A DNA stretch of 64,000 bases from Magnetococcales bacterium (GTDB lineage Bacteria > Pseudomonadota > Magnetococcia > Magnetococcales > JADFYX01), in contig PEAM01000005.1 of assembly GCA_002753565.1 (NCBI GenBank), positions 1 to 64,000 on the forward strand. The letters are read 5' to 3'. A program made the translations under genes and the position numbers. Positions 10,037 through 28,321 of the stretch are shown in pieces; positions within the stretch are counted from its first letter, which is position 1; each line of letters opens with the position of its first letter. The notes under the pieces were generated by a model. The model did not search any database and was not told the DNA's origin. It saw only the letters and a program-made list of their open reading frames with translations.

Positions 10037-10240
10037 ATGCCTAGAGGAAACAGTGGCAGAGTAGTCATTGAGCTTGATCCAGACATAAAATCACAACTTT
10101 ATCAGGCTCTTAAAGGTGAGAAATTGACTCTGAAAGAGTGGTTTCTCCTTAGAACTCGCGAATATTTAGATCGAAATGATCCCCAGTTAGTTCTGGAACT
10201 TCAGGATACCGCGCCAAGTCAAGAGGGAAGCGAGAAATGA
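10037..10240 (+). CDS. Small ribbon-helix-helix-like protein, first gene of the defence operon
   Basis: A 67-residue protein starting at ATG 10037 behind GAGAGAG. The sequence RVVIELDPDIKSQLYQALKGEKLTLKEWFLLRTREYL has the strand-helix-helix spacing of RHH (Arc/CopG-like) DNA-binding proteins: a short beta strand followed by two amphipathic helices. It overlaps the DUF4007 gene by four bases. It probably represses the operon through the palindrome just upstream; an antitoxin-like or structural role is also possible. The fold call is by pattern; no experimental homologue is known to me. Confidence 0.6.
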   Translation: MPRGNSGRVVIELDPDIKSQLYQALKGEKLTLKEWFLLRTREYLDRNDPQLVLELQDTAPSQEGSEK

Positions 10241-11175
10241 ACAGTACTACCAATCTCGTTACCGTCTTTGAACCTTCCAAGGTTGCTTTTGGTCGTCATG
10301 AAACATTCCCTCTACGCTATAGCTGGCTGACCAAGGGATTCATGGCATTACAGAAGAACCAAGATATTTTTTCATCCGATCAGGCCACGGTAGCTTTGGG
10401 GGTTGGAAAAAATATGGTGAACTCAATCCGCTATTGGCTGCGTGCCATGCGGATGATCGATACAAAGGACACCACGCCAACGGAACTCGGACAGATGCTG
10501 CTGTCCGAGGATGGTTTTGACCCCTATCTGGAAGATGAAGCAACCATTTGGCTACTCCACTGGCTGCATGCGACTAATCCCGAACAGGCCACCACCGCAT
10601 ACTGGCTTTTCAACCGCTATCACAAGCCCGAATTTACCGCTGAAGAAATGGTTAACGCGCTACTCTCTTTTGCGAAAGAGCACATTACCGGCAAATACTC
10701 GGTCAATACGGTCAAACAGGATGCGGCTGTAATTCTGCGTATGTATGCGCCAAGTCGGAAAGCATCCAAAATCCCGCTGGAGGATATGCTGGATTCACCT
10801 CTATCCACTTTAGGTTTGCTTTCCGTGCAAGAAACTAAAAGAGGATATGCCACATTCCCAGAAAGTCGTCCTGGGTTGCCTGTTGAGGTCGTCGCTTTTG
10901 CACTTACGGAATTGCTTGCCTTTCATGATACAAATACAATGATGTTTCAAGAGCTTATGTATGGTCGGCTTGGGCAATCAGCATTAGCCAGTATTTTTCG
11001 CCTTAGCGAAACTGCCTTGCTGACTATTATCGAGCAGATTGTTATACGGTATCCTGATTTATATGAAATCCGTGAAACAGCCGGGGTACATCAAATTTAC
11101 CAGTTGCGAGATATTGGTTCCTTCACATTCTTGAAAAGCTATTATGAGCCTCATGTAGCAGGGGTGGCCGCATGA
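10237..11175 (+). CDS. DUF4007 protein of the phosphorothioation-type system
   Basis: A 312-residue protein matching the DUF4007 pattern. It opens with FEPSKVAFGRHETFPLRYSWLTKGF, followed by a winged-helix-like segment FSSDQATVALGVGKNMVNSIRYWLRAMRMI at about 46-75 and an aromatic stretch DEATIWLLHWLHATNPEQATTAYWLFNRY at about 100-130. DUF4007 genes typically neighbour PAPS-reductase-family genes in defence islands, as here. The likely job is sequence recognition or assembly of the modification complex. It is coupled by four-base overlaps on both sides, to the RHH-like gene and to the large ATPase. Family call is firm; function is not established. Confidence 0.85.
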   Translation: MNSTTNLVTVFEPSKVAFGRHETFPLRYSWLTKGFMALQKNQDIFSSDQATVALGVGKNMVNSIRYWLRAMRMIDTKDTTPTELGQMLLSEDGFDPYLEDEATIWLLHWLHATNPEQATTAYWLFNRYHKPEFTAEEMVNALLSFAKEHITGKYSVNTVKQDAAVILRMYAPSRKASKIPLEDMLDSPLSTLGLLSVQETKRGYATFPESRPGLPVEVVAFALTELLAFHDTNTMMFQELMYGRLGQSALASIFRLSETALLTIIEQIVIRYPDLYEIRETAGVHQIYQLRDIGSFTFLKSYYEPHVAGVAA

Positions 11176-14100
11176 GTATCTCGAATGTAGTCCGAATTGA
11201 TACACATTATACTCGTTCAATTAATATTGAACGCGATATGTATTCACCGGAGACGGTTGACTCATATATCCCAACATCACGCGCTAAACAGACCTTGGAA
11301 CGGATTGAGTTAGCCTTATCCGATGGCAAAGCCCAACGTGCTTGGGCATTGACTGGCCCCTATGGGTCTGGGAAATCGATTTTTGCTGTCTTCTGCGCTC
11401 ATCTACTTGGTGATCCTGGCCTGGGAACCACACAAACGGCTTTTGATGTTCTAGAAAGTGAGCCAGATCTCGCCGATAGATTCCGTAAGCATTCCCTGTC
11501 AAGTAAAGGATTCTGCCCGGTTTTGATCACCGGCACACCAGAGCCTCTTGGTCGTCGCTACCTTATGGCTCTTGCGTCATCTGCCGAACAGTATTGGAGT
11601 ACTCGCAAGGGACGCTCGCCTCGGATTGTAGAAGAACTGAAAGACCTGGTTTCTGGCATTGATAAAATAGGCGTCAATCAGCTCGTCACGTTGACTTCTA
11701 AGCTACAAGAGGCCGTGGTAAAAAGTGGTGGCAATGGCGTGCTTGTTGTATTCGATGAACTTGGCAAATTCCTCGAGTATGAAGCACGGCACTACGGCGC
11801 AAATGATATTTTCCTTTTACAGTCATTAGCAGAGCATGCATATGCGGGAGGAAAAGGAAAACTACTAGTTCTGGCGCTGTTGCATCAGGCGTTTGATCAG
11901 TATGCGCGTGGCCTTGGTGAGAAGCTCCGCAATGAGTGGGCTAAAATCCAAGGGCGGTATGAAAACATTCCATTCTTGGAGTCCGCTGAGCAAGTCTTGC
12001 GAGTGGTGGCGCTAGCGTTTGATCCCGCTTTAAACAATTCTGACAAGAAGGTTGTAGGTCGAAAGGTAAAAGCCTTCGTAGAGTCTGTCGTCGAAGAGAA
12101 AAGTCTGCCTGGCGGTGTCAGAAAGCAGGAAGCGAAAGCTTTATTTTCGCGTTGCTACCCACTGCATCCACTCGCATTGATGCTGTTGCCTAAGCTGTGC
12201 CAGAAGGTCGCACAGAATGAGCGTACTCTGTTCAGTTACCTCGGAAGCCAAGAACCACACGGTTTCCGAGACAGTTTGGAGCACATCGGTTCTATCGGTG
12301 AGTGGATCTACCCATCGGAAGTTTACGACTATTTTATCCTGAACCAGTCTTCCTCACTATTCGATCACATAACCTCCCGGCGTTGGGCTGAAGTTGTGAC
12401 AGCACTGGATCGTCTGGGTGATGCTCCCAAGGACGAAATACAGCTTCTCAAGACCATCGGGCTGCTTAATATTATTGGAGCGCAAGGTGCCATAAAGGCT
12501 TCCAAGAGTTTGCTTTTGCATTGTTTGCCGACTTCCATACGTGCTGAGAGGGCGCTTTCCGAGTTGGTGGAAAAATCAGTCGTACAGTTTCGCCGTTATA
12601 GCGGTGAATACCGTGTCTGGCAGGGTAGTGATTTTGATCTCGAAGAAGCACTTGCAGAGGCCCGTAATCAAATCGGATATGTCGCCCTCGCGGAATCGCT
12701 GAACAAACGCACATCTATTACTCCTGTGATTGCCAGACGGCACACTATACAGACTGGCACGGTGCGCTATTTTCAACCAATTTTCGTGGATGATGAGTCA
12801 TTTCGCTCATACCCTCCGCAGGGGGATATACCCCGAATTATATTCTACCTGTCGGAAGGTGCAGAGTTTGACACCTCTCAGGAAAGAGAAATAGCCCGAT
12901 TCTTTTCCAAACAGGACTTGGTCGCGATCTGTCCAATTGGTAGTCAACTGCGTGAGACCGTCACGGATGCAACCGCTTTGGAACGGGTGCGTTCAGGTCG
13001 TCAAGAACTCAACTCTGATCCGGTTGCAAGCCGTGAGGTAAGGGACGCACTTGCTACGGCCCAAAGAATGGAAAAGAGGTTGGTAGATTCGCTGTTGGAG
13101 AGTCCTGCGGATAGCCGCTGGTTTTGGGCTGGTGAGATACAAGAGATTACCGATAAGCGTGGATTACAACAGAGTCTCTCCGCTGTGATGAGCGAGCTCT
13201 ATCATGCCGCGCCTGAGATCAAAAACGAGCTGATCAATCGAGATAAATTATCAAGCCAAGCTGCGGCGGCGCGGAATAAGCTGCTTGGAGGGTTACTTCA
13301 CCACACAGATCAGAAAGACCTTGGTATTGGAAAATACCCGCCTGAGAAAGCGATTTATCGATCTTTGTTTTGGGCGTCTGGAATGCATGTGTTGGGCAAT
13401 GATAGTAAATGGCATCTGATTTCACCTTCAGAGGGTGCAGACCCATTGCATTTTAGGCCGCTATGGAGGCGTATCGAGGATTTTTTTTCTGAGAGCGAAA
13501 CCAAGCCCAAATCATTGGGTGAACTTGGTGAGATTCTTGTTGCCCCACCGTTTGGTCTCAAAGAGGGAGTGCTGCCAGTCATCTTTATTGCGGCTTACCT
13601 AATCCGACAAGATGAAATCGCTCTATATGAGGACCGTGAATACATCCCTGTTCTTACCGATGAATTGCTTGACAGGTTCGTGCGACGACCAGAAGCTTTT
13701 CGGATCCAACTATTCCGAATCAGTGGAATGCGTGCTTCCATCTATAAAGAGTACGGAAAAGCACTGTGGGATAAAGTTGAGCATGAACAATCCATACTCG
13801 CAATTGCCAAACCACTAATACGATTTATACGAGAGTTGCCAGCATGTGCTATGGCAACTAAAAGGATATCTGATGTTTCTCAAAAGGTCCGGCAAGCATT
13901 CAATTTATCAAGTTCACCTGAACAGCTGCTTTTTGACCTTTTGCCGCAAGCGTGCGGCTACCCCCCTCTTGATCCGAATGATGACACCAAGCCTGATCAG
14001 CTTTCAGGATTTGCCGAAACTCTAACAGGAGCTTTCCGTGAACTTAAAAGTGTCTTTCCAAACCTCTTAGAGGAACAGCGTCTCTTGCTGGCCAACGCTT

Positions 14101-14669
14101 TTCATGTCAATAAGGATCATGACCTTGAAACTCTACGCACAATGCTTCGGGGGCGTAGTGACAGGCTGGAAAAATTCACAGTTGACGTTGATGGTTTGCG
14201 GGCCTTTATCATGCGTTTGAGTTCGCGTGATGGAAATGCAAAAGCCTGGTTGAAGGGGCTGATGTTGTTTCTTGGTCGCAAACCAGTGGATAAGTGGACC
14301 GACGCAGATCGGACCGCTGCCGAATATCGACTCAGTGAATATAGCCATCGCTGGCGTGACCTTGAAACTCTCCGTGTGCAATTTGATAAGCATAGCCAGA
14401 GAAATAAAGGGGATTTCGATGTGGCGTTGTTGCGATTGGTACGGCAAGGCCATGGGGAACAAGATAGAGTAGTTGTGGTTGACGCCAAGTCCGCTGCGGC
14501 AACAAAAAACGCAAAATACCAACTTGAAAGCGTTCTGGATGAACTTGGCTCGAAGGAATTACGACTCATTGTCCTGTCAGAGCTGCTAAAATCAGAACTT
14601 TTTGCGTCTGACGAAAATAGTGATATGATGGGTGTCACATCAAAACCCAAAACAACCAAGACTGGATGA
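11172..14669 (+). CDS. Large P-loop ATPase, BrxC/PglY-like, of the modification module
   Basis: A 1165-residue protein. Walker A GPYGSGKS lies at residues 62-69 and Walker B LVVFDELGK at 191-199, followed by a conserved-looking FLEYEA. About 950 mostly helical residues follow. Size and motif placement (early P-loop, long C-terminal region) resemble BrxC/PglY ATPases of BREX systems rather than the SMC-like DndD of Dnd systems. Next to a PAPS-reductase-family enzyme this recalls type 4 BREX, which pairs BrxP with BrxC, yet no PglZ or BrxL gene is present. It probably drives ATP-dependent loading of the modification complex on DNA. The ATPase call is certain; the BrxC relationship needs a profile search. 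Confidence 0.8.
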   Translation: MSISNVVRIDTHYTRSINIERDMYSPETVDSYIPTSRAKQTLERIELALSDGKAQRAWALTGPYGSGKSIFAVFCAHLLGDPGLGTTQTAFDVLESEPDLADRFRKHSLSSKGFCPVLITGTPEPLGRRYLMALASSAEQYWSTRKGRSPRIVEELKDLVSGIDKIGVNQLVTLTSKLQEAVVKSGGNGVLVVFDELGKFLEYEARHYGANDIFLLQSLAEHAYAGGKGKLLVLALLHQAFDQYARGLGEKLRNEWAKIQGRYENIPFLESAEQVLRVVALAFDPALNNSDKKVVGRKVKAFVESVVEEKSLPGGVRKQEAKALFSRCYPLHPLALMLLPKLCQKVAQNERTLFSYLGSQEPHGFRDSLEHIGSIGEWIYPSEVYDYFILNQSSSLFDHITSRRWAEVVTALDRLGDAPKDEIQLLKTIGLLNIIGAQGAIKASKSLLLHCLPTSIRAERALSELVEKSVVQFRRYSGEYRVWQGSDFDLEEALAEARNQIGYVALAESLNKRTSITPVIARRHTIQTGTVRYFQPIFVDDESFRSYPPQGDIPRIIFYLSEGAEFDTSQEREIARFFSKQDLVAICPIGSQLRETVTDATALERVRSGRQELNSDPVASREVRDALATAQRMEKRLVDSLLESPADSRWFWAGEIQEITDKRGLQQSLSAVMSELYHAAPEIKNELINRDKLSSQAAAARNKLLGGLLHHTDQKDLGIGKYPPEKAIYRSLFWASGMHVLGNDSKWHLISPSEGADPLHFRPLWRRIEDFFSESETKPKSLGELGEILVAPPFGLKEGVLPVIFIAAYLIRQDEIALYEDREYIPVLTDELLDRFVRRPEAFRIQLFRISGMRASIYKEYGKALWDKVEHEQSILAIAKPLIRFIRELPACAMATKRISDVSQKVRQAFNLSSSPEQLLFDLLPQACGYPPLDPNDDTKPDQLSGFAETLTGAFRELKSVFPNLLEEQRLLLANAFHVNKDHDLETLRTMLRGRSDRLEKFTVDVDGLRAFIMRLSSRDGNAKAWLKGLMLFLGRKPVDKWTDADRTAAEYRLSEYSHRWRDLETLRVQFDKHSQRNKGDFDVALLRLVRQGHGEQDRVVVVDAKSAAATKNAKYQLESVLDELGSKELRLIVLSELLKSELFASDENSDMMGVTSKPKTTKTG

Positions 14670-14678
14670 TAAATTACT

Positions 14679-15440
14679 ATGAGACATGTTCTTGGCATAT
14701 CAGGTGGCAAGGATAGTGCCGCCCTGGCGATTTACCTCAAGGAACAGGGGCGAGCGCCGGATATAGAGTATTTTTTTACCGATACCGGTGCTGAGCTACA
14801 GGAAGTCTATGATTTTGTTGACAGACTGGAAGCTTACCTTGGAAAGGAAATTAAGCGGCTCAACAGCGGTGCTGATTTTGACCATCATCTAGTAAGGTTC
14901 AATGGTTTTTTGCCGTCTGCACGACAGCGCTGGTGTACACGGGTCATGAAACTTGAGCCGTTTGAGAAGTTTGTTGGGGATGATCCAGTTATTTCCTATA
15001 TAGGCATTCGTGCAGATGAAGACCGCGAAGGCTACCTCAGCCATAAACCCAACATTAAAGCGGTATTCCCGTTTGTTGAGGATGGTCTTGTACGCGAGGA
15101 TGTGTTTCGAATTCTAAAAGAGACGGTAGGTATTCCAAAATATTACCAGTGGCGCAGTCGTTCAGGCTGCTATTTCTGCTTCTTTCAACGACGCGATGAA
15201 TGGGTTGGATTGCACGACAGGCATCCAGAGCTGTTTCGCCAAGCAATGGAGTACGAAAAATTTAACGACCTTACCGGGGAACGATATACTTGGATTCAAG
15301 GGATTTCCTTGGAAGAGCTTATTGAAAGACGATCCAGCATCTCCTCTAAAGCAAACTGTCGGACAACCAGGACCTGGGAAGATCGGTTGTTTGATGTGGA
15401 TGATGAGGAAGATCAAGCATGTCTGATTTGTTCACTATAG
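14679..15440 (+). CDS. PAPS-reductase-family sulfurtransferase (DndC/BrxP-like)
   Basis: A 253-residue adenine-nucleotide alpha hydrolase with the PP-loop SGGKDS at residues 8-13. Conserved cysteines occur at CTRVMK near 89, SGCYFCFFQ near 165-170 and a terminal CLICS; several could hold an iron-sulfur cluster. In Dnd and Ssp systems the family member DndC/SspD activates the DNA backbone for sulfur insertion, and BrxP is the related enzyme of type 4 BREX. This copy is short, about half of DndC, and closer to CysH size. It follows the ATPase by nine bases. No cysteine desulfurase (DndA) is in the window, so the host IscS would have to supply sulfur. A role in assimilatory sulfate reduction is unlikely in this setting. 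Confidence 0.88.
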   Translation: MRHVLGISGGKDSAALAIYLKEQGRAPDIEYFFTDTGAELQEVYDFVDRLEAYLGKEIKRLNSGADFDHHLVRFNGFLPSARQRWCTRVMKLEPFEKFVGDDPVISYIGIRADEDREGYLSHKPNIKAVFPFVEDGLVREDVFRILKETVGIPKYYQWRSRSGCYFCFFQRRDEWVGLHDRHPELFRQAMEYEKFNDLTGERYTWIQGISLEELIERRSSISSKANCRTTRTWEDRLFDVDDEEDQACLICSL

Positions 15441-15629: not shown

Positions 15630-17519
15630 ATGACTGATTGTACCGAGACTAAAGCTCCGAGAAGTGCAACTCCGCCAGCAGCAGCGTGGGTGCGTTTTCT
15701 ACGTTCTTATGGACCGACTCCAAACGACTTGAACCTGTTTGATGAATACGTCACCCGTGCCATCAAACGAGCGAAGGTTCCTCCCATCATTTTAGCCAGT
15801 CCACAACTTGAGAAAATGTGGCAAAGGATCGAGTCTGGCACGCCAGGATCGATCCTTGTCGCGGGCACCGCTGGTGATGGTAAGACCTATCATTGCAGAA
15901 GTCTGTGGGCAAAATGTGGAGGAAGTACCGAGGAATGGTCCGGTACTGACCCGATCAAAAAATTGAGGCTTACCGACGGTCGAACGGCTGTGTTCGTCAA
16001 GGATTTGAGCGAAATCAGTGACCAGGTGCAAAGTGATGAGGCCCTTAAAATACTCGAACAGACGGTTCTGGGTGGCGACGATTCGACTGTACTTATAGTA
16101 GCTACAAATCATGGTCAAATCCTCGAAAGGCTGCGTGACCTTGGTGAGCGACAAAGCCGTATTCATCCACTCCGCAAACCAATTCAAGACGCTTTCTTAT
16201 TGGCAGGACCTTACCCTGAGCGACTTGCCATATTTGACCTGAGTCGTACAGCTCGCCGCCACTCACTCGAGGAGGTTATCGGAGCTATAGCCGGTCATCC
16301 CGAGTGGGGGAAATGTGCTGAATGTCAACGTCGGTCAGGAGGCAATATTTGCCCAATCTTTGAGAATAAAGAACGTCTCATTGCTGCTGACAACAACTCA
16401 AGCTTCGTTAAGAGATTGGGCGATCTCGTGGAGGTATCAAGACATAATGGATGGCACCTGCCAGTGCGCGATTTGCTGGCCTTGGTAGCCAACATGGTTC
16501 TTGGTCATAAAGACGCAAAAGAAGGACTGCTTACGTGTCATGCAGTGGCGAAAATCCAAGAGACCGGTAATATTGAACATGGTAATATTTACGATAACGT
16601 ATTCGGTAAAAACCTTCCAAGAAGGAGAGCCAACGATAAGCAAGTGTTCCGAGCATTGGCTGCATTCGGTATCGGTGAAGAGACATCAAACGGTTCTGAT
16701 GGACTTCTTGTCTATGGGGCTGATGACTCCAAACTATTGGACGCTTTTGAACGTTTGGTAAAAATAGATCAGATTTACGGCGCAACAGACTCTTTTCTTG
16801 CAGCACAAACCCATTATCTTGAAGGAAACGAAGACGCTCGCCTTGATGAAGGAGCATCCGAGTTCCTCCACCTACTTGGAACGCAAAGGCGGCGACTTTT
16901 CTTCACCCTACCAGAGAATGAGCCAGACTATCCTTTTTGGGAAATGACTGCATTCAGATTCGCTGGAGACTACCTCGAGCTGATGGCAACTCTAGCAGAG
17001 AGTCGACCAATAGATGAGACCGTTCGTTTAAGGTTAGCCAAGGGGCTCAATAGGGTGATGACCGGCCTACTACTTGAAAACTCCGACCGGATATTTATTG
17101 CGAGCTCTGGTGGGTTCACACAGTCAAGGATCAGCGTTTTGTGTGATACTGAAGTCCCAACCCGGCGATCCCGTGGAGTCGGAATGAAGATTTGCCTCGA
17201 TCCAAGAACAGAGCGGCCATCTATCGATATGGCTTTAGGAGCTTTTTTTGATGAACCGGTTGTTTTGAACCTTACTCCTGTTCGGTTTGAGTTCTTGTGT
17301 CGTGTTGCAGAAGGCTCGCTACCAGGAAGTTTCTCTAATGAGTGCCTCGAGGACATGCTTGCATTTAAGGCAAAACTTTTGCGAAAAGCCGAACTCTTTC
17401 GAGCGATGCCAGATGACGATGATGTGGGGGATGTCGAAGCACTCACTTTAGACTTCATCGAAATCGAACAAAATGGTCATGGGTTCTCCCTACCAATCAC
17501 TGTGAGGATTAAAACGTGA
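15630..17519 (+). CDS. DptF-like ATPase of phosphorothioation-dependent restriction
   Basis: A 629-residue protein from ATG 15630; an upstream TTG at 15612 is the alternative start. Walker A GTAGDGKT is at residues 79-86 and a sensor-like VATNHG at 157-162. A cysteine cluster C229, C232, C241 (CAEC...CPIFEN) may bind metal. The GDGK-type P-loop, cysteine cluster, length and position first in a three-gene set ending with a giant FtsK-like protein all fit DptF (DndF). DptF acts with DptG and DptH to attack DNA that lacks phosphorothioates. Its stop overlaps the next gene by four bases (GTGA). The family call rests on motif and context rather than alignment. Confidence 0.7.
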   Translation: MTDCTETKAPRSATPPAAAWVRFLRSYGPTPNDLNLFDEYVTRAIKRAKVPPIILASPQLEKMWQRIESGTPGSILVAGTAGDGKTYHCRSLWAKCGGSTEEWSGTDPIKKLRLTDGRTAVFVKDLSEISDQVQSDEALKILEQTVLGGDDSTVLIVATNHGQILERLRDLGERQSRIHPLRKPIQDAFLLAGPYPERLAIFDLSRTARRHSLEEVIGAIAGHPEWGKCAECQRRSGGNICPIFENKERLIAADNNSSFVKRLGDLVEVSRHNGWHLPVRDLLALVANMVLGHKDAKEGLLTCHAVAKIQETGNIEHGNIYDNVFGKNLPRRRANDKQVFRALAAFGIGEETSNGSDGLLVYGADDSKLLDAFERLVKIDQIYGATDSFLAAQTHYLEGNEDARLDEGASEFLHLLGTQRRRLFFTLPENEPDYPFWEMTAFRFAGDYLELMATLAESRPIDETVRLRLAKGLNRVMTGLLLENSDRIFIASSGGFTQSRISVLCDTEVPTRRSRGVGMKICLDPRTERPSIDMALGAFFDEPVVLNLTPVRFEFLCRVAEGSLPGSFSNECLEDMLAFKAKLLRKAELFRAMPDDDDVGDVEALTLDFIEIEQNGHGFSLPITVRIKT

Positions 17520-19045
17520 CGCAAAAGATCGACGGAGTCGACTTTGCCGTCGACGAGCATATCTGGGGGCACCGTCTTTACGACGAACAACTTCCACATC
17601 TAACTATTCTTGAATTCCTTTGCGTGCTGGGATCGAACATCGACAGCCCACTTCAGGAGGACGCTGATGGTCGGGTGCAATACAAACCGCAACGGCAATA
17701 TCGTCTTCGTTCATTGTTGTTCAACAATCCTTTCGTAGAGGCTATCCGCGCAAAGTCACTTTCTGATGCAGATAAATGGACCATGTGGAATGAATATTTC
17801 TCTGCTGAAGCCACTGGATTCGAAGCCAGTGACATGTCCTACTTGCGATCTTCTTTCGCTAACTTCGACGATTTTTCCAAAGTTATCACACTTCTCCGGT
17901 CATCCGCCTTCGAGGTTCATAGTAATAAACGCTGGAGCTCTAAATTCGTATTTCCTTTCGGTCCCGACGCATTATACGAGGATCTTCGTTTCACCTCAAA
18001 AGGTGTATCAAATGATCGTCGGTTCTTTGCTCGTACAGGAGAACTCCTCTATTTAATGCTTTGCAGGGCCAAAGGTGGGGCCGATCTCGGCAAGGTTCTA
18101 GTTGAACGTTTGTTTGATCGGGAAACTCCCATGAATCGTTTGGTGCGGGTTCTTCAAGGAGAACCTCAGTTGGCTGATACATTCAGGGATGGCGGATATC
18201 TCCCTCTCGCTGAGCATCCCCGCTTTGACAGGCTTTGCTCAGACTGGACAGCTATCCTTTCCAGGGATATGCCTGTTTACGATGCTCTCGAACACTTGAT
18301 CACAAATGCTGGGCTGAACCTGCTGCTTTATTTCCTTGAACGCGGCAAAGAAGTAGCAGGTGACTCAGAACCAATAGAGATAATTTGCGAAGTAGTCTCA
18401 TATGAAAGGACTAAAGTAAGAGCCCTGTCAGGAGAGTCCTATCAAGCCAACCAAGCCCTATCCTTTCGGGCGATCAGGGCGAATATCGAAAGTGTTCGCC
18501 TCAAAGAAGAGTGGTTAAAAGCACTTGCTTCAGATGATCCTCATGTGGAGTGTGCCAGGGTTATGAGTGCGCATTTTCAGTGGCCATCAACTACCATAGA
18601 TGATGATGAACTGGACGCCATGCAAAAAACCGGTGATGAACTTGTCCAAGAGCTCACTGAAATAGCTGAACTCCGCCACAAACAACATTTTGGTAAGATT
18701 CACGCGACGTGGTCCCGAGCGATTGGGTTGAGTTCAAGAAGGCTCTCTCGAAGGACACGCTACGCTCCTAACGATCGCTTGCTAAAAACTCTTGTCGTCT
18801 CGGTCGTTGAGGACCGTATGCAGTTTGATGAATTTCTACGCGAGTTAAGAACTCGATACGGGCTGGTAGTTGGTGACTCTGAAGGAGCGCATCTAGTCAA
18901 GGATAAACTTGTTGACCAGGAGGCGTTGAGCGAGAACCGTGCGAACCTCGAAGCTCGCCTCGTTGGTCTTGGGCTTGTTCGTAGGCTTTCTGACTCATGT
19001 TCCTTTGTCGAGAATCCATTTATATCAAAAGGGGAAGCAGTATGA
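17516..19045 (+). CDS. DptG-like protein of the restriction module
   Basis: A 509-residue protein with a GTG start overlapping the stop of the DptF-like gene, and its own stop overlapping the start of the giant ATPase (ATGA). No P-loop or nuclease motif is visible. It is mostly helical with a charged central part and ends in a winged-helix-like region (LVSVVEDRMQFDEFLRELRTRYGLVVGDSEGAHLVKDKLVDQEALSENRANL split across about 415-480). DptG is likewise the poorly conserved middle gene between DptF and DptH, so the assignment is mainly positional. Confidence 0.6.
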   Translation: MTQKIDGVDFAVDEHIWGHRLYDEQLPHLTILEFLCVLGSNIDSPLQEDADGRVQYKPQRQYRLRSLLFNNPFVEAIRAKSLSDADKWTMWNEYFSAEATGFEASDMSYLRSSFANFDDFSKVITLLRSSAFEVHSNKRWSSKFVFPFGPDALYEDLRFTSKGVSNDRRFFARTGELLYLMLCRAKGGADLGKVLVERLFDRETPMNRLVRVLQGEPQLADTFRDGGYLPLAEHPRFDRLCSDWTAILSRDMPVYDALEHLITNAGLNLLLYFLERGKEVAGDSEPIEIICEVVSYERTKVRALSGESYQANQALSFRAIRANIESVRLKEEWLKALASDDPHVECARVMSAHFQWPSTTIDDDELDAMQKTGDELVQELTEIAELRHKQHFGKIHATWSRAIGLSSRRLSRRTRYAPNDRLLKTLVVSVVEDRMQFDEFLRELRTRYGLVVGDSEGAHLVKDKLVDQEALSENRANLEARLVGLGLVRRLSDSCSFVENPFISKGEAV

Positions 19046-22000
19046 TTGCCGACCGTATCGTCGGCCGAGTTGGTGCCGAAATCCTGCGACAACGCCTCTC
19101 AGATGCACGTCAAAGCGACGGAATGGCACCTGACTCAGCGGCTATATTTCGTCTCGATAAGCTTGCGTCAGGTCAGATTGCTTCGGTTGTCCGCGAGATT
19201 CTTGCTAGTCCAGATCTGGCTTCAAGTGTAGAAATTAAGATCCCAAAGTCGCTGGTTGAGGGCGAAAATATTTCACCAGATGTTATCACACACCTAAATG
19301 CAGGGGCCATCCGAAACGCTGGAACAAATCGTGAGGTCCTGTTGACAGCTAACGGCAACGAGCACAATTTGTCTGATACTCTCGGACATGTCAGTGCACT
19401 TGGCGCCAAAGAGTTCAGAGTCTACGAAGAAACATGGGTTGAGGCGACGTGTCATGTAGGTGGTATTACACCAACACCAGACGACCGCGCAGTATTCCGG
19501 GCCGCTCTCAAAGGGTTGATGAACTCAACTGATCTTTCTCTCCATCAGCTTGGGCGTTTCTGTGAGATGATAAGTGAAGCGACATCCGCTCGGGGTTTAG
19601 CTATTCGCGATGCATTTGGTTGGTCTCTTCCCTATGTTGGCCTTCCAAGGGACTCTTCTTTGTTTTCAAACCCAAAAACCTATGGTTCGACTGTCGGCGC
19701 ATGGCGAAGAGCTTTCATAAAGCTTTTCTCAAAGCGAGCTCCGCTTCTGTCTAAACTGCGACCGACAGGAAAACCTATCGACCCAGAGGAGCTTTCTCAA
19801 CGGCTTGCTGACAATACAGAAATTCTTCCCGATCACGTTCAGGTCGCCCTGAATGCTTTCATATCGGCACCACCGGGGGAAGAGACTACTAGGTGGGAAA
19901 TTGCCCAACTCGAGTGGGAGATGGATGGAGTTCACCTTGTTTTCGATAAGCCTCGAGCTACCCAGAAGGGGTTAGCTAATGCGACATTATATTTCTTCGA
20001 CAATGATTGTGATGATTCTGACATCCTTGACGCACATTGGCGTAACCACCTTGAAGATCTTCAGGCCCGCGAGAAACGCTCCGATTGGAACGAGGAGGAT
20101 GAAGAGTTTTTTGAGATTTACCGTAATCACATCGAGAAGAATAAACAGCTTCACGCGCGGTGGGAGAAGGTGGTTTTCGGAAAACCAGTTGAGTGTCATG
20201 ACTTCCTGGAGGGTTTCGTCACAACAGCCCATCAACTAACAGTGGGCACTCAGAGCCGTTCTGGTGAGCATGTTCTCCGCTTTACTGTTACCAAGGGTCG
20301 CACAGAATGGCGCGAGCGTTTTAATGGTGACGTTGGTGCGTTCTTTTCAACCATGTATCGTGGACTCAAAGAGTTGATGGGAGCGAGCGTCGAATGGCGT
20401 GTGACAAAGATGGGTGCTGGTAATTTACCTGATCCTCTTTTCGATCATCCAGCCTTTATTACCCGTGAGAAGGAAATTCGGGGTAAAAAATTCAAAGGTT
20501 GCTCATCCCTAGCAAAAAAAGCCATACAAATCAAGTTTGACGTTGCCTTGATTGAGAAATCAGGATCCAACGAGAAACCTCTCAGCAAGACTCAGCTTTT
20601 GTGGAAATTTAGACCCGAATCAATCGGTCTATCCTTGCTCGATGATATGAAACGCCTTCAGGAGAAAGGTGGGGTCGGCTGTACGGAGGTTCCTCGACGC
20701 TTAGTCAGTAAAAAAGGAGGGGTCCAAAGTGTCAACTTACTCAACTCCTCGACGCTTGAGGCGACCTATTCCCGTGATGCAGGATCTCTGGTACCGAAAG
20801 CTAGTAAACTGCTTAGCCTTAGAGCTGGAATCAAACGTTGTATTAATGAGCTGGCTTCAGAGGGAAGAATTGGAGCTGAGCAGAAAACAGAATTACGCGA
20901 CGCTTGGGATGCTTTCGAATCGGAATATGCCAAGGCGCTTGATGACTTTATCAACATCGGTCTCCACGGTGAAGCTGTGAATCATCAGGCCGATTTATTC
21001 GCCTCCTTGCTAAAGTCGCTAGCAGTACACGCACGTGGTGATGTTTGTCGGTCACGCCTTGTTTCTGAGATACTTTCTATTGGTACTGTTCGAATAACCG
21101 GTGGTCAACCTGCACTGATTGTCCCGCCTTGGAATCCTGAAAGAATGAAAGCTCTGGCTGTGAAAATACGCCGAGTTGCCGGGTTAGTCGCTCACATTCT
21201 TGCTGGTAAGAAAGTTCTCTTTGGTGACCCGAGAATTTTCTTTCGTGAATTCTTTGAGGAGCTTGCACACCCGTTTTACCCAGAGATCGCAGTACTCTCA
21301 CGTGGTGGTGCACCGATCCTTGTCAGTGAAAGCAGCACAGTAAATGGTTATAGTCTCTTAGAGCGGCCAGCAAGAGCAGCAGATGATGAGCTTTCGGACT
21401 CCGACCCCTCGTTAGCCGCCAAACAGGCTAAAGATCTCATGGAGCGTTACGTAGGACTCCAACCGCACGAGGCCGCTAATTTGAGCGTACTCCTTTACAA
21501 CGCTGATGCCGCTGAGCTACCACTGGCCATCGTGCGTGAGTTATCAGGTCTGCAAGCGGAAACAGAGTTCCAGTGCAACGTCACCGTACGTCATAGTGAC
21601 CAAGTGAAACTCAGAAGGGTTTATGCTGAGTTGGTCAGTAAGGCTGGTGATGACCCAGATATGCCAATCGTTAGTGAAGTTTCCCAGAACTTTATATCTC
21701 GACTACGCATTTCTGTCGCACCACCTTCGGCAACACCAACCAGGAATGAAGATGGATTTCGTCCTTTCGACGTTGCGTTTCTACACGAAGTTGTGTCGAG
21801 AACCGCTTCTGTAGAATGGGTTCCTGTCGACTGGACCAATGACCTCCCGACATTGGAGCATGCTCCTTCGCGCTGGTCTTATAGGAGTGTTTCTGGTGAG
21901 AATGAACTTAAATCAACGACTTTCTTGACTTGTCCTCGACAGACAGCATCCGGATGGGCATATATCAATTCCGTCGCCTCGGTTGTCCGGCAGACCGATG

Positions 22001-24471
22001 CCAATATTGGGGACCATTTCCTCCCAGCTCGTCGTATCTCACTCCAAAATGAAGGACTTAGGTCAATTCTCGATGACGCTCATGCATTGGCTGAGTGGGT
22101 AGCAAGTTATGATGAATTGCTTGATAAAAGACAGTTGCAGGCAAACGGCGTCACAGTTGTTCGATATCGCAGGGCCTCGACAAATGGGCTAAACACCATT
22201 GTAAGTTCGACCTCAGAACTCCGACTGCTAGGCGTCCTTGTGCTTAAAAGACTTGGTGAATTGGGGCTACCCCTTTCATCAGAACAAATTTCTTCCTTGG
22301 CAGATCGGATGAAGAAGGATGCTATATCCGTCTCCGGAGACATCGTCTTGCGTGCCGCTAAAAGAGGCATTTCTGCTGGTGAAATGATCGGTCTGGTGTT
22401 AAGTCGCCGAATTCTCGAGGAGGAGTTCAACAAGCTTCCTGGCGACAAGAAGCCAGCATTCAGTGTTTTTTTCCTACTTGATGACTATGCGAATTGGCTT
22501 GCACAAAAGGAGAGCCGGATTGCTGACATACTTGGATTGTCTGTCGAAGAGGGGGAAGATGGTCCGCTACTCCATATATCTGTTGTTGAGTCAAAATATG
22601 TTTCACCAGCAGGGACCGCTGAAGCTAGGCGCTCATCGAAGGCACAATTGCTTGCAACTCTCTCCACATTCCGTGCCGCACTTTTTGGTGATCCTGGTCG
22701 CCTTGATCGGGACGTGTGGCTTGCCCGTTTGGCTGACCTGCTGATTGATGCCAACATTCCTCCTGGATGCTCTGATCTTTTGGAGCGAACACGGGCCAAG
22801 CTACGTGATGGTGAGGTAAAGATATCGCTTCGTGGATACTCGCATATTTTTGTGCATTCTGCTGACCCATCAGGTACTACCAATGAATCAGTGAGGATTC
22901 TTGTCGACGAAACAGAAGGAATCGAGGCATGGCAAGAAATTTTCGAGCGACCAGAGGTGCGTCTTCTAGCAGAGTCTTACGCGAACGACACTCCTTGTAT
23001 TCCTATTCGTGAGTCTATTGGATCGACGAAGCCGTGGGATTCATCTTCTCCAAGGTTACCGGCTGCGAGAGTCGTTTGGGGGGCCTTGGTTGGAAAACTT
23101 GAAACTCAGGCTGATGAAGAAATAGAACTGCCTGTTGAGGGGGTTGGAACGGATGAACCTCAGAAAATTCCGGAGTTACCGAAGACAGAGACAACGGTTC
23201 CAGTAACCACTCCAGAGGAATTAATTGCATCTGATGATGCGTCAGTTCCTGCTACCGACTTTTCGGAAGTCGAGTCCAAATTTACCAGCTTAATCGCTTC
23301 CAAAAGCGCATCTATAACAGCTGTGGAGGATGAGCGAACGGCATGGGCTGAGGAGATGACTAAGAAGCTTAAAACTGCTCTCAATAGTTACGGATTTCAG
23401 GCTGCTGTCCTTGGTACTCTCCTGACCCCTAATGGGTGCTTAGTGCGTCTCGCAGGTTCTGACCGCCTACGTGTCGGGGACATTGAGGCCAAACGCACAC
23501 AGTTACTGACTACGCATGCGATCAACCTAGTTACAGTGCAGCCGAAGCCTGGTGAAATCGTTATCACCATTGCAGGAGATAAACAGCAGTCAGTTTCTCT
23601 TTGGGATCTTTGGAGGCAGCGCTCGCTCAACCGAAATGCCGCTAACATCAACACTTCTTTTTTGCTCGGAGTTCAGGAAATTAACGGGAATCCGTTATAT
23701 CTTAACCTTGGTAGCGAGTTCGGGGGGCTGGCATCTCATGAGCCGCATTCTCTTGTGGCCGGTGCGACTGGTAGTGGAAAGTCAGTTTTGATCCAGGCAA
23801 TGCTGTTAGATATTGCTGCGACCAATCCGGTAGAGCTTGCTCGAATAGTTTTGATTGACCCGAAAATGGGTGTCGATTACGCAGCCCTCGAAGATCTACC
23901 GCATATGCATGAGCGGATTATAACTGACAAAGAGCAATCCCAGGGAATCCTTGAAGGGCTTGTTGAGGATATGGAAAACCGCTACCGGCTTTTTGCCTCT
24001 GCACGCGCACGCGATTTATCGACATACAATGCGAAATCACCACCGGAGAACCGTCTACCTATGGTGTTCCTAGTTCATGATGAGTTCGCCGACTGGATGT
24101 TTGACAATGATTATAAGTCGGCAGTTGGTGCAGCCGTCCAGCGACTTGGTGTCAAGGCACGTGCCGCCGGAATTCATCTGATCTTTGCCGCACAGCGACC
24201 TGATAAAGATGTGATGCCAATGCAGCTTCGAGAGAATCTCGGAAATCGGCTAATCCTGAAAGTGGCAAGTGAAGCAACTTCGAAGATCGCCCTCGACCGA
24301 GGGGGAGCCGAACTACTGCTGGGAAAAGGACATTTAGCGGCCAAACTGAATGGAGAGCAGGGTCTTGTTTTCGCTCAGGCACCATTCCTTTCAGACGAAG
24401 ACATTATGCTGGTCGTGGAGGCAATACGGTCAGACAACTCCGAGGCAACCCTTAGGAAAAAGATAGAATGA
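19042..24471 (+). CDS. DptH-like giant protein with C-terminal FtsK/HerA-type ATPase
   Basis: A 1809-residue protein from ATG 19042 (AAAGGGG upstream, overlapping the previous stop). The first 1500 residues have no motif I recognise. The C-terminal quarter is an FtsK/SpoIIIE-type motor: Walker A GATGSGKS at 1574-1581, Walker B FLVHDEF around 1676-1682, then HLIFAAQRPDKDVMP and a GGAELLLGKGHLA segment typical of FtsK-like DNA translocases. Length and C-terminal ATPase match DptH (DndH), the putative translocase of Dnd restriction. An acidic, Pro/Thr-rich linker at about 1355-1400 precedes the motor. Together with its two upstream partners it would discriminate and cleave unmodified DNA. Confidence 0.8.
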   Translation: MIADRIVGRVGAEILRQRLSDARQSDGMAPDSAAIFRLDKLASGQIASVVREILASPDLASSVEIKIPKSLVEGENISPDVITHLNAGAIRNAGTNREVLLTANGNEHNLSDTLGHVSALGAKEFRVYEETWVEATCHVGGITPTPDDRAVFRAALKGLMNSTDLSLHQLGRFCEMISEATSARGLAIRDAFGWSLPYVGLPRDSSLFSNPKTYGSTVGAWRRAFIKLFSKRAPLLSKLRPTGKPIDPEELSQRLADNTEILPDHVQVALNAFISAPPGEETTRWEIAQLEWEMDGVHLVFDKPRATQKGLANATLYFFDNDCDDSDILDAHWRNHLEDLQAREKRSDWNEEDEEFFEIYRNHIEKNKQLHARWEKVVFGKPVECHDFLEGFVTTAHQLTVGTQSRSGEHVLRFTVTKGRTEWRERFNGDVGAFFSTMYRGLKELMGASVEWRVTKMGAGNLPDPLFDHPAFITREKEIRGKKFKGCSSLAKKAIQIKFDVALIEKSGSNEKPLSKTQLLWKFRPESIGLSLLDDMKRLQEKGGVGCTEVPRRLVSKKGGVQSVNLLNSSTLEATYSRDAGSLVPKASKLLSLRAGIKRCINELASEGRIGAEQKTELRDAWDAFESEYAKALDDFINIGLHGEAVNHQADLFASLLKSLAVHARGDVCRSRLVSEILSIGTVRITGGQPALIVPPWNPERMKALAVKIRRVAGLVAHILAGKKVLFGDPRIFFREFFEELAHPFYPEIAVLSRGGAPILVSESSTVNGYSLLERPARAADDELSDSDPSLAAKQAKDLMERYVGLQPHEAANLSVLLYNADAAELPLAIVRELSGLQAETEFQCNVTVRHSDQVKLRRVYAELVSKAGDDPDMPIVSEVSQNFISRLRISVAPPSATPTRNEDGFRPFDVAFLHEVVSRTASVEWVPVDWTNDLPTLEHAPSRWSYRSVSGENELKSTTFLTCPRQTASGWAYINSVASVVRQTDANIGDHFLPARRISLQNEGLRSILDDAHALAEWVASYDELLDKRQLQANGVTVVRYRRASTNGLNTIVSSTSELRLLGVLVLKRLGELGLPLSSEQISSLADRMKKDAISVSGDIVLRAAKRGISAGEMIGLVLSRRILEEEFNKLPGDKKPAFSVFFLLDDYANWLAQKESRIADILGLSVEEGEDGPLLHISVVESKYVSPAGTAEARRSSKAQLLATLSTFRAALFGDPGRLDRDVWLARLADLLIDANIPPGCSDLLERTRAKLRDGEVKISLRGYSHIFVHSADPSGTTNESVRILVDETEGIEAWQEIFERPEVRLLAESYANDTPCIPIRESIGSTKPWDSSSPRLPAARVVWGALVGKLETQADEEIELPVEGVGTDEPQKIPELPKTETTVPVTTPEELIASDDASVPATDFSEVESKFTSLIASKSASITAVEDERTAWAEEMTKKLKTALNSYGFQAAVLGTLLTPNGCLVRLAGSDRLRVGDIEAKRTQLLTTHAINLVTVQPKPGEIVITIAGDKQQSVSLWDLWRQRSLNRNAANINTSFLLGVQEINGNPLYLNLGSEFGGLASHEPHSLVAGATGSGKSVLIQAMLLDIAATNPVELARIVLIDPKMGVDYAALEDLPHMHERIITDKEQSQGILEGLVEDMENRYRLFASARARDLSTYNAKSPPENRLPMVFLVHDEFADWMFDNDYKSAVGAAVQRLGVKARAAGIHLIFAAQRPDKDVMPMQLRENLGNRLILKVASEATSKIALDRGGAELLLGKGHLAAKLNGEQGLVFAQAPFLSDEDIMLVVEAIRSDNSEATLRKKIE

Positions 24472-24581
24472 CGAAAAAATGGACATCAACAACGCATCCG
24501 ATCTCTGACATCAAAGACTGGAATGATGCTGGCACACTGATCCCGCATTTCCCAGATGGAATGCTGATTTGCCGTTCATGA
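24468..24581 (+). pseudogene. DUF262 N-terminal remnant fused to the end of the defence operon
   Basis: A 37-codon frame begins with an ATG overlapping the DptH-like stop (ATGA), so it was once the next gene of the operon. The peptide PISDIKDWNDAGTLIPHF resembles the opening of DUF262 (GmrS-like) proteins, which usually read ISDLL.WY..GEL.L.PDFQR. It stops at TGA 24581 just where the conserved PDFQR segment should follow, and no continuation is seen in any frame downstream. I read it as a gene truncated by deletion. The match is short. Confidence 0.5.
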
Positions 24582-24673
24582 TTGTATGAATTCTTTTAAA
24601 ATCCAATCTGACTTAGAATGTTGGCAAGGCAAGCAGTGGGCCATCCATTTAGTGAAAGGAAAAAGTAGGCCCA

Positions 24674-24780
24674 ATACCATTTCCATTGGATAATGTCCTG
24701 ATGTTCAGCTTGGCAAATGCTGGTATTTATTGAACTTCAACCAATCGACATTAGGCCATTTCCTATTGGAAACGGTATTA
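24674..24780. repeat. Imperfect inverted repeat downstream of the DUF262 remnant
   Basis: The sequence from AATACC at 24674 through ATGTC at 24698 is repeated in inverted, gapped form from GACAT at 24748 to GGTATT at 24780. The arms match imperfectly, with an eight-base insertion in the right arm. It could be a decayed palindromic element or a deletion scar linked to loss of the DUF262 gene. Weak evidence. Confidence 0.3.
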
Positions 24781-24803
24781 GCGCACAAGAGGAAGGAAAT
24801 AAG

Positions 24804-25091
24804 ATGGACTACGATCTCGCTGATGTTGCAAAAGTTGACCTTGAGCGTATTCTCAACCTGCGGGAGCAAATGCCCTCGCCAAAATTTGAACGATTGCAAG
24901 AGGGGCTACTTATCCTTGGATTGATTTCTGTTGATATTGACAACAGGACAAATATAATAAAAAGTTATTGCCTTACTAAACAAGGCATTTCTGCTCTTGA
25001 TTCCGGCAAAGTCACAATTACAGATGGAATGCACGCAAAGCTAGATAAGATTTCAGCGTCGTTTGATGACAACCCCTGGTACCGTACGTAA
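24804..25091 (+). CDS. Small winged-helix-like protein of unknown function
   Basis: A 95-residue protein. I chose ATG 24804 because AGGAAGGAAAT precedes it; upstream in-frame codons extend only into the inverted repeat. The pattern of helices followed by LEGLLILGLISV...YCLTKQGISAL resembles a winged helix in which the last strand-helix pair ends 'LT..G'. It is preceded by the DUF262 scar, so it belongs to a separate unit. It could be a regulator or an incomplete protein. The family was not recognised. Confidence 0.5.
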   Translation: MDYDLADVAKVDLERILNLREQMPSPKFERLQEGLLILGLISVDIDNRTNIIKSYCLTKQGISALDSGKVTITDGMHAKLDKISASFDDNPWYRT

Positions 25092-25184
25092 ACCCATCAT
25101 CCGCAGAAGCGTTGGGTGATCCATGGTTGCAGCATGCCGGTGTGCTAGTTGGAAAACTTCGGATGGAATTGTTGAGGAAATCAA

Positions 25185-25547
25185 ATGGAATACTCAGTAG
25201 AAATAGATGAAGAATCCACGAAATCTCTCCTTGAATGCTTTCATATGGGGCCAATAGTGGATGATTCTGGAATGCGCCTTCTTCTTGAAGAAGAAGTTGA
25301 TAGATTTGGGGGGTTGAAAATTGATGTCTTCAGTAAAGAACACCCCCCACCTCACTTCCGAGTCCTATATCAAGGAGACTCAGAAACTTTTACGATAGAA
25401 GATTGCCGCCCACTTCAGAAAAATGGGGGTCTAAAACCATTTCATCGAAATATAAAGGCATGGTGGAAGAAAAATAAGAGAACACTCATCAAAACATGGG
25501 ATAGAAAACGTCCAACTGACTGTCCTGTCGGAGCATTTAAAGATTGA
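25185..25547 (+). CDS. DUF4160-like protein
   Basis: A 120-residue protein with the core KIDVFSKEHPPPHFRVLYQGDSETFTIEDCRPL, close to the DUF4160 pattern in which a short strand is followed by HxPPHFH-like residues. Here the last histidine is replaced (PPHFRV). The C-terminal stretch NIKAWWKKNKRTLIKTWDRKRPTDCPVG also fits the family, whose members often occur next to DUF2442 genes in toxin-antitoxin-like pairs. No DUF2442 partner is present. ATG 25185 has only a modest ribosome-binding site. Confidence 0.65.
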   Translation: MEYSVEIDEESTKSLLECFHMGPIVDDSGMRLLLEEEVDRFGGLKIDVFSKEHPPPHFRVLYQGDSETFTIEDCRPLQKNGGLKPFHRNIKAWWKKNKRTLIKTWDRKRPTDCPVGAFKD

Positions 25548-25741
25548 GGCTTAGAGTTTGATTGCCCAATATACTGATGTTCTCCCAATTTAGTGGAAAC
25601 GGGTTCAAGTCCGCTTTCGCAGTGTTTCAAAGGCAACCTGACTGAGATAGCTAAGCGTTGGATCATGGCCATTCCCGTCGTTTCACGACTAGTTTGCGAT
25701 GCACTTCTTGATGCGATTGGAGTGGCAGAATAATTTCAGCG

Positions 25742-28321
25742 TTAGCCGGTATCAGCGATATTCATGAAGTCTGCGACTCTTATCACTCTCGGAACCAAGC
25801 GACCAGATTTTCCTGGAAACATCAATACAATCTGACGGTCATGATTTGGGCCATAACTGACATGAAATGATTGATGATCTTTCCCGTAGAAATATAAGCG
25901 ATCAAACGGGGTATTTTGCACCACCCATTGGGCTACCTCCAGCAGGTTTTCATCTTCAACAAAAAAATCACATGCGGCCCCCAAACGCTGACAAATTGGG
26001 TTTCCTAGGCGGTTGAGTTCATGAGCAGCATGTTGATCCCGTTTCGGATCAATCCGTCCTGCAATTTTTTTCGCCAATTCAGGTGAGCAGAAGCCGAAGG
26101 TCAACTGAATCATTCCAAAATAGTCAATCACCGGATCCAATATCTGGACCGTGAGATCATGGAGAGCATTATAGCTTTCTGGTTGTAAGGGAAGGTTTGA
26201 AAGTTTGGTTGCTGCCTGTGTCTCACCACATTCAATAAGATGCCGGAAGGTAAGGAACTGACCGCAGGGCTCATCAAGTTCTGGAATGGTAGGTGATCGT
26301 ACCAACTCAAACCCTTCAATGGTCCAGCGATGGCGCGCCAGTTTATCCAAAAAGATGTCAGGTTCTGGTCCATAACCGGACAGATTAATCACCTTCAGTG
26401 ATTCCAACGCTTCTTCAAATACTTGTTGCTCTGGATAATTGGGAAATTCCTCATTGATATAGCGTGACTTGTGAAATAGGAATGGTGGTGAAAACTTTTC
26501 ACCATAGGAATAATAATCAATATCTTGCTCCCGCAGCTTTATTTTGACCCGTTCTACCATCCGAGGTAGTGGATTGCCCTCAAAATCTTCGTAACGCATA
26601 AGGCTAACCTTACCAGAGCGGATGTGAATTTTTACCAGTTCAGCATTTCGATAGTCGCCGTAGAGTAATGCGGCGCATCCCACATAAACCCGTAATAGGG
26701 GGTGAAGCTGCTCAACCATGCTCACATGGAGTTGTAGTGACTCACCCGGTTCCAACCAACCCAAGCCCCGCTCCGCTGCTTCCAGACACGCCTGAGAGAT
26801 GGCTTTAACATCAGCAATCTGAAATAGTAAGGCTCGTGATTGAGCTTGGGCCGCCCCATAGTCTCCGAAGAACTGTTTGATATCTCGTTGTAATCCGCGT
26901 TCCAGATGTTTGTATGGCCGACGACGTTCAAACTGATTTAAAGCGAAATAAACCTCCAAATCAGCGACGCGCATTTCAGCAGCTCGTTTAATATCAGCAG
27001 GATCTTTCCGTCCTTCCAAAAAGCGTAAGGCTTTTGGAAGAGATCCGAACCCTTCCGTCAGCACCAACAGGTCACCCACCTCCGATTTGTCCGGCTTACG
27101 ACCAAGAGCAAGCCACTGATCCCAGAGACGCTCAAGAGATTCTCGGTGAACTTCATATCGTTCTGTAGCGCGGTCACGTAGCGGTTTCTTTACGGTCTTT
27201 CTCTGTTTATGTGACAGAGATTGAAGGCGATTATGTTTGCTTCGATATCGATCCACTAGAAAGCGCTGTTCAGTATCCTTGTCACGGAATACAAAAAGTA
27301 CTCCAGGTGCTACAGGAATCGGCTCTTCATCAAGAACTTGTTCCAAAAATGCTTTGATCTCTGACTGGGTAAAATATTTCTGGAAGGTCCCGCGTGAAGT
27401 CATTACTCCATCGCGAAACCTCTGACCACGAGTATCGTTCTGATTTGCGAGCATTACAGACACTACAAGAAGACGTTCTGCCAACGACCAAGCCCTGGTC
27501 AGAGCCTCAACACGCTCATCAAAATCCTCAATGACATTGATCACAAAGCCCAAATTAACGATATCCGCTTGAGCTACAGGGTTGTCCGGTGCGTAATAGG
27601 GGTCCCAACCTGTCGCTGATATACTGTTCTCGGTCAACTCGCGAACATCATCTCCACGTCCGCAGCCATAGTCGAACAATCGATGACGGCCATCCAGAAA
27701 ACCATAGCGCGCCAACGACTGTACTGGAGCCGAGAAGCCGTAACGGGTCAGGGCCGTTAGGTGCCGTGATGCCTCCCAGTCAGCATGTAGTGGTGTTGGT
27801 TCTTGTTCACTCCTTTCAATCGACTCATCATTTCCAATTGGAACCAGAGAATGACCTTCAATGCGGAATCCTTTTTCACGTACTAATGCCAACCACTGGC
27901 GCTGGTAACCGATGCGTTTTGGTTCATCGAACAATCCGATAGATTCAGCAGTACTAGTCAACTTCTCATAAATCTTGCGACGCGGATTACCTGGCAGAAG
28001 GAGTAGTTCTTTACGATGCAAAATAGGGGGATTCAGCGAATCGGCATAAGTGCGGTAGCTGATAGCTGAACTTTCTATGTCGATCAACCAACTTTCGCAA
28101 AGCGACGGGAATGGATCATCAAAAAAATTGGGATAGTTGAGTAACGCGATTGAAGACCCGCGATCATCAAATCGTACGAGATTATAATCCGTATCTGGTT
28201 TGATCTGAGCCAACTGCGATGCTCTGTTTATGCGTTTTACCCATTTTTCATCCAACTTGAGGAGTGCGCTAACATGGAAATATGTTTGGGAACCAACTTT
28301 TTTGCACGGAACAGGTTTCAT
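25742..28321 (-). CDS. DNA phosphorothioation-associated putative methyltransferase
   Basis: An 859-residue protein resembling the dnd-associated putative methyltransferase family (dnd_rel_methyl). An N-terminal domain of about 180 residues (VSALLKLDEKWVKRINRAS) precedes a Rossmann SAM-binding core with DYGCGRGDD at 217-225 and NLGFVINVIED near 258. The long C-terminal half is helical. This family is found in dnd neighbourhoods, which independently supports the phosphorothioation assignment of the plus-strand genes. It is convergent with that system, about 195 bases from the DUF4160-like gene, so it has its own promoter near 28330-28400. Whether it methylates DNA is unknown. Confidence 0.85.
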   Translation of the reverse strand: MKPVPCKKVGSQTYFHVSALLKLDEKWVKRINRASQLAQIKPDTDYNLVRFDDRGSSIALLNYPNFFDDPFPSLCESWLIDIESSAISYRTYADSLNPPILHRKELLLLPGNPRRKIYEKLTSTAESIGLFDEPKRIGYQRQWLALVREKGFRIEGHSLVPIGNDESIERSEQEPTPLHADWEASRHLTALTRYGFSAPVQSLARYGFLDGRHRLFDYGCGRGDDVRELTENSISATGWDPYYAPDNPVAQADIVNLGFVINVIEDFDERVEALTRAWSLAERLLVVSVMLANQNDTRGQRFRDGVMTSRGTFQKYFTQSEIKAFLEQVLDEEPIPVAPGVLFVFRDKDTEQRFLVDRYRSKHNRLQSLSHKQRKTVKKPLRDRATERYEVHRESLERLWDQWLALGRKPDKSEVGDLLVLTEGFGSLPKALRFLEGRKDPADIKRAAEMRVADLEVYFALNQFERRRPYKHLERGLQRDIKQFFGDYGAAQAQSRALLFQIADVKAISQACLEAAERGLGWLEPGESLQLHVSMVEQLHPLLRVYVGCAALLYGDYRNAELVKIHIRSGKVSLMRYEDFEGNPLPRMVERVKIKLREQDIDYYSYGEKFSPPFLFHKSRYINEEFPNYPEQQVFEEALESLKVINLSGYGPEPDIFLDKLARHRWTIEGFELVRSPTIPELDEPCGQFLTFRHLIECGETQAATKLSNLPLQPESYNALHDLTVQILDPVIDYFGMIQLTFGFCSPELAKKIAGRIDPKRDQHAAHELNRLGNPICQRLGAACDFFVEDENLLEVAQWVVQNTPFDRLYFYGKDHQSFHVSYGPNHDRQIVLMFPGKSGRLVPRVIRVADFMNIADTG

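Follow-up and report, generated by a model that had tools for sequence, protein, structure and literature searches.

An SspBCD-SspFGH phosphorothioate restriction locus in a Magnetococcales bacterium, predicted from sequence, with modification and restriction halves of different lineages

A 64,000-nucleotide stretch from a Magnetococcales bacterium (GenBank assembly GCA_002753565.1, contig PEAM01000005.1, positions 1 to 64,000; hereafter the window) carries seven plus-strand open reading frames and a convergent minus-strand methyltransferase gene, a locus that is very probably an intact SspBCD-SspFGH phosphorothioate restriction system directed against phages. All of these genes were found intact, with the sizes and order listed in an earlier note on this DNA (Table 1), and that note was right in dividing them into a modification half of the phosphorothioation type and a restriction half. 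The SspBCD-SspFGH anti-phage system was published in 2021 (PMC8092258), and the present locus is one further copy of it. Statements about function made throughout are drawn from sequence.

Proteins were identified by searches with PADLOC, NCBIfam and Pfam profiles, with an E-value of 1e-3 as the threshold for calling absence. Six proteins, in operon order, each have their best match in their own PADLOC Ssp family, with alignments spanning the greater part or the whole of the protein, and since the E-values range from 1e-88 to 0, chance matches are excluded. SspB is recognized by PADLOC (1.6e-88), by Pfam DUF4007 (4.3e-79), which occurs only once in the host genome, and by comparison with the solved SspB structures 6juf/6lb9 (6.8e-34). 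SspC matches its PADLOC family with an E-value of 0 (1335 bits, residues 1-1068), while SspD does so at 3.2e-105 as compared to a mere 9e-5 for DndC, and also matches Pfam PAPS_reduct. In the restriction half, PADLOC returns SspF at 4.6e-232, SspG at 5.2e-215 and SspH at 0 (2359 bits), the last with a Pfam FtsK_SpoIIIE match (7e-32) and with FtsK structures matched at residues 1453-1811 of its 1824-amino-acid (aa) form. For SspG, structure prediction on four sequences with AlphaFold reached a predicted local distance difference test (pLDDT) value of 40 and the model was not used. Thus SspB, SspC and SspD of the known system are all present by PADLOC, and sspF, sspG and sspH lie adjacent and in order, a three-gene block that also adjoins SspBCD in beta- and alphaproteobacteria.

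Catalytic motifs are intact, comprising Walker A motifs in SspC (GPYGSGKS, residue 62), SspF (GTAGDGKT) and SspH (GATGSGKS, residue 1574 of the 1809-aa form), SGGKDS at residue 8 of SspD with two CxxC pairs, and the S-adenosylmethionine (SAM) motif of the methyltransferase (DYGCGRG, residue 217). The required cysteine desulfurase, either SspA or IscS, would be provided in trans by neighbouring genes for IscR-, NifS- and IscS-like proteins, which lie on contig C78 of the host genome, and IscS can substitute for SspA (PMC8092258). In the proposed mechanism, the host IscS/NifS-type desulfurase would supply sulfur, SspD would activate it with ATP, SspB, the predicted nickase and target recognition protein, would introduce nicks at the target motif, with SspC serving as the motor, and one strand would come to carry sulfur where a non-bridging phosphate oxygen had been. 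The SspFGH module, in which SspH is the FtsK-like translocase, would damage DNA lacking this mark, so that phage replication would be blocked and the host spared. The small ribbon-helix-helix (RHH)-like protein encoded by the first gene probably represses its own modification operon via the palindrome in front of it, and the TIGR04096 methyltransferase would be accessory. Adjacent genes mostly share 4 bp, apart from a 9 bp gap between SspC and SspD and one of about 190 bp between SspD and SspF, and this layout suggests two coupled transcription units, one running from the 67-aa gene through SspB and SspC to SspD and the other from SspF through SspG to SspH.

Table 1. Positions of the Ssp locus features in the window, and loci carrying the helicase-GHKL-PLD trio
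Feature	Position	Strand	Size or remark
Palindrome ATGTTATGTAACAT, predicted operator	10004-10017		33 bp upstream of the 67-aa gene
RHH-like gene	10037-10240	+	67 aa
SspB (DUF4007)	10237-11175	+	312 aa
SspC P-loop ATPase	11172-14669	+	1165 aa
SspD PAPS-reductase-fold enzyme	14679-15440	+	253 aa
SspF P-loop protein	15630-17519 (alternative TTG start 15612)	+	about 629-635 aa
SspG, restriction module	17516-19045	+	509 aa
SspH FtsK-like translocase	19042-24471	+	1809 aa; 1824 aa from upstream ATG at 18997
TIGR04096 putative methyltransferase	25742-28321	-	859 aa, convergent accessory gene
Helicase-GHKL-PLD trio loci	G012 L033, G054 L036, L074, L075, L076, plasmid loci L039-L042		beside SspBCD

The earlier note had proposed a new type bridging Dnd and type 4 bacteriophage exclusion (BREX), built from a BrxC-like ATPase, a CysH-like enzyme and DptFGH-like proteins. 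Its description of the ATPase as BrxC/PglY-like holds, since PADLOC BrxC matches SspC at 1.8e-159, though well below the SspC profile, and SspB and SspD weakly match BrxP (about 3e-8 with PADLOC); however, each protein matches its own Ssp family far better, and the kinship of Ssp with type 4 BREX is general to Ssp and already described (PMC12839542). Failure of the restriction trio to match DptFGH had been named in that note as an outcome speaking against it, and no locus protein matches DndF, DndG or DndH at the threshold in PADLOC or NCBIfam, so that a DptFGH-like identity is ruled out in favour of SspFGH. What stands is the functional analogy and what falls is the family assignment, as SspFGH and DndFGH share no significant sequence identity, yet each includes a protein with a Walker A motif as well as a translocase of the FtsK type (PMC8092258). 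Identity as type 4 BREX is likewise ruled out by the absence of PglZ, which the earlier note had also reported and which holds for the whole genome, and the locus proteins gave no match to BrxL with PADLOC. Hence, at the level of profile matches, a bridging type is already refuted and retains only a very slight probability; the architecture corresponds to published SspBCD-SspFGH.

Comparison with characterized systems places the locus closest to SspABCD-SspFGH of Vibrio anguillarum FF-93 (PMC8092258), with which it shares sspBCD with adjacent sspFGH, the SspF Walker A motif, the FtsK-like C-terminus of SspH, a phosphorothioate writer that works with IscS and the lack of SspE. It differs from the Vibrio system in having the RHH-like gene and palindrome in front and the TIGR04096 methyltransferase behind, and in combining modification and restriction halves of different lineages. 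SspABCD-SspE has the same SspBCD writer family, but there the mark activates the effector SspE (DUF262/GmrSD), while SspFGH is directed against DNA that lacks it (PMC8092258); as no SspE was found in the whole host genome, SspE was rejected as a second effector. DndABCDE-DndFGH similarly pairs a phosphorothioate writer with a three-gene restriction module containing an FtsK/HerA-type translocase and works in a similar manner (PMC8092258), but its restriction module gives no sequence match to SspFGH, and the locus proteins match SspB, SspC and SspD rather than DndC, DndD or DndE, with a DUF4007 nickase and an Orc/Cdc6-like ATPase in place of DndE and DndD. In type 4 BREX, BrxC, the PAPS-reductase and DUF4007 are homologous to SspC, SspD and SspB (PMC12839542), but SspB and SspD are separate proteins in the window. 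The methylation-associated defence system (MADS) works with DNA methylation and its similarity is partial, with the SspG C-terminus weakly resembling MAD7 (NCBIfam, 1.8e-12) and the SspH C-terminus resembling MAD8 (PADLOC, 4.4e-21), which suggests an effector core common to phosphorothioate- and methylation-based defence. On a plasmid of Pseudanabaena galeata (L030:16622-27591), SspBCD adjoins a second DUF4007 gene and BrxL, and this looks like an Ssp locus beside type 4 BREX genes.

The two halves of the locus have different ancestries. The window SspH is 67-69% identical to SspH of Curvibacter, Limnohabitans, Polaromonas and a Rhodocyclaceae metagenome-assembled genome, and in the SspH tree it falls among betaproteobacteria, between Polaromonas and Methylibium; among 48 genomes of the host's class, full-length SspH is present in this genome alone. 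The SspC tree, by contrast, groups the window with two genomes bearing related SspBCD loci, G012 (69%) and G054 (43%), beside cyanobacterial SspC (29-30%), and the window SspC is just 27-28% identical to that of the betaproteobacteria holding the nearest SspH. In other loci with both genes, SspC and SspH trees broadly agree, betaproteobacteria and alphaproteobacteria each staying together. Gene order differs as well, SspBCD and SspFGH being collinear in the window and convergent in these other loci. By these trees the locus is a chimera of an RHH-SspBCD-methyltransferase unit of one lineage and SspFGH of a betaproteobacterial lineage, which is most simply explained by the joining of an SspFGH block to a modification unit unrelated to it.

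Such an ancestry also fits two independent units lying side by side, in which an SspFGH cassette occupies the effector slot next to RHH-SspBCD-methyltransferase and is perhaps unmatched to its mark, and this is further favoured by G012, in which this unit carries other effectors in its slot, and by the SspD-SspF gap without overlap. However, unrestrained SspFGH harms cells lacking the right mark, so that an intact SspFGH would be unlikely to survive next to a writer with which it is incompatible, and SspFGH of one Vibrio accepted marks written by divergent SspBCD (PMC8092258); independence of the two units is accordingly judged unlikely. Even less probable is a decayed or silent locus: promoter and terminator scanning of the region gave fewer promoter-like sites than in shuffled sequences, with no prediction standing out, a result that is uninformative, but the large reading frames are all intact, catalytic motifs are kept and gene joins overlap. 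An intact SspBCD-SspFGH system therefore remains the preferred interpretation, against which count the lack of sspA in the locus, the position of SspFGH behind the SspD-SspF gap, where it could have its own promoter, and the distance of SspC, which is 25-30% identical to every SspC compared except those of G012 and G054, so that the single-strand mark at 5'-CCA-3' of the known system cannot be assumed here.

Results on the first gene, and on the alternative effectors described below, draw on between a few and about twenty loci, with no correction for relatedness. In G012 and G054, the gene immediately preceding sspB encodes a homologue of the 67-aa protein (53% and 49% identical), and in all three the palindrome ATGTTAYRTAACAT is conserved 33-37 bp upstream of the small gene (-33 in the window, -37 and -34 in the related loci). 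It occurs exactly once per genome in the host, G012 and G054, as compared to none for a reversed-pattern control, and its chance expectation in the window is 0.02 with one mismatch allowed. On plasmids, homologues head N-6 DNA methylase operons in Acinetobacter, E. coli and Sphingobium, with a related core TATGTRACATA at -34 or -35, and one heads a DUF499 anti-phage operon in Stutzerimonas; the core was not found upstream in the Pseudomonas and Stutzerimonas cases. A structural model has two helices (pLDDT 70) and its best PDB matches are the RHH repressors omega, Arc and ParD, none significant (E above 2), hence an RHH fold is weakly inferred. Conservation of the upstream palindrome and the homologues heading methylase operons make a regulator fit this single short unit better than DndE, a reading that is disfavoured. 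The protein is thus probably an autoregulator of the modification operon with the palindrome as its predicted operator, and the simplest reading of its family is that of autorepressors of DNA-modification operons. Across the plasmid loci L046, L047, L049 and L050, such a small gene heads N-6 methylase operons together with a TATGTRACATA-type palindrome, or precedes the DUF499 operon without the same palindrome, and the RHH-like protein may be a regulator that modification operons have in common.

The convergent gene had been called a dnd-associated methyltransferase, and this is borne out by its TIGR04096 score of 592 bits in NCBIfam, where the cut-off is 150. A gene 83-84% identical to it occurs in G012, the closest relative, at the corresponding position of the locus. 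Since SspC lies within 20 kb in at least 11 of 24 TIGR04096-like plasmid records taken from the list, the remaining 13 being absent from the 60 SspC rows listed, this family belongs with Ssp loci as well as with Dnd loci and is often linked to Ssp. Residues 687-831 at the C-terminus of the window protein match a separate 194-aa gene of the Pseudanabaena plasmid (L030:10481-11065), located between the methyltransferase and SspB, and the two form a fusion/split pair.

Around these genes, two small genes at 24717-25547 separate SspH from the methyltransferase. The second encodes a DUF4160 protein weakly like the toxin DhiT, and neither has a homologue in the related Ssp loci compared. A large serine recombinase flanked on both sides by a small gene (7734-9927) suggests a mobile cassette adjoining the Ssp locus, and the small-gene region preceding the recombinase is repeated in the host genome at C4 and C10:96647. 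A 596-aa gene at 29531-31321 has a copy with 81% DNA identity at C5:43636-45368. No near-identical copies of the locus were found in the plasmid collection, and in mapping of the insertion site within the genus the relatives lacked both flanks, so that no empty site could be demonstrated.

In the nearest SspBCD locus, that of G012, the regulator, SspBCD and the methyltransferase are kept, and a trio replaces SspFGH between SspD and the methyltransferase (L033:15175-19623), consisting of a superfamily 2 (SF2) helicase of 556 aa, a GHKL/MzaB-like ATPase of 633 aa and a PLD-type nuclease of 304 aa. The same trio is present in G054 (L036:2813-7210; 40%, 32% and 30% identity to that of G012). A search of 398 genomes of the phylum with the GHKL protein gave five hits at 1e-40, all among the eight genomes with SspC (chance about 7e-10 by a hand calculation that ignores relatedness), at 2.4-7.4 kb from SspC and in 5/5 accompanied by the helicase and PLD genes. 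The plasmid search gave 12 near-full-length GHKL hits, each with SspC no more than 20 kb away, and the four of these plasmids examined in detail have the helicase in every case and the PLD gene in three. In Aminobacter pUSP2, the GHKL protein and a helicase occur alongside fragments of SspF and SspH (L042:27547-28720), which looks like a replaced effector and possible relic. No PADLOC or NCBIfam model names the trio and, among the open-licence papers searched, none was found describing it as an Ssp effector, while paraMORC-helicase-nuclease operons are known in general in restriction systems (PMC2292703) and in the archaeal Pbe system a PLD domain and a helicase are fused in a single protein, PbeA (PMC6459918). 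The trio is accordingly a candidate for a further, unnamed Ssp effector.

With odds leaning slightly in its favour, RHH-SspBCD may represent a deep, separately evolving phosphorothioate writer equipped with a dedicated autorepressor and operator, whose effector slot is exchanged between SspFGH, as in the window, and an SF2 helicase-GHKL/paraMORC-PLD trio, as in G012 and G054, this trio being a third Ssp effector type in many SspBCD loci without SspE or SspFGH. In 2021, 2,211 of 2,678 sspBCD loci had neither SspFGH nor SspE, for which the reason was left open (PMC8092258), and the trio in the slot of the closest relatives offers a concrete candidate answer. The value of the locus is comparative. 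As its marking and attacking halves differ in lineage, it suggests that these halves of Ssp are swapped in nature, and because SspFGH harms cells without a matching mark, its presence beside a writer whose ATPase is about 27% identical to that of its usual partners would constitute a natural test of mark portability.

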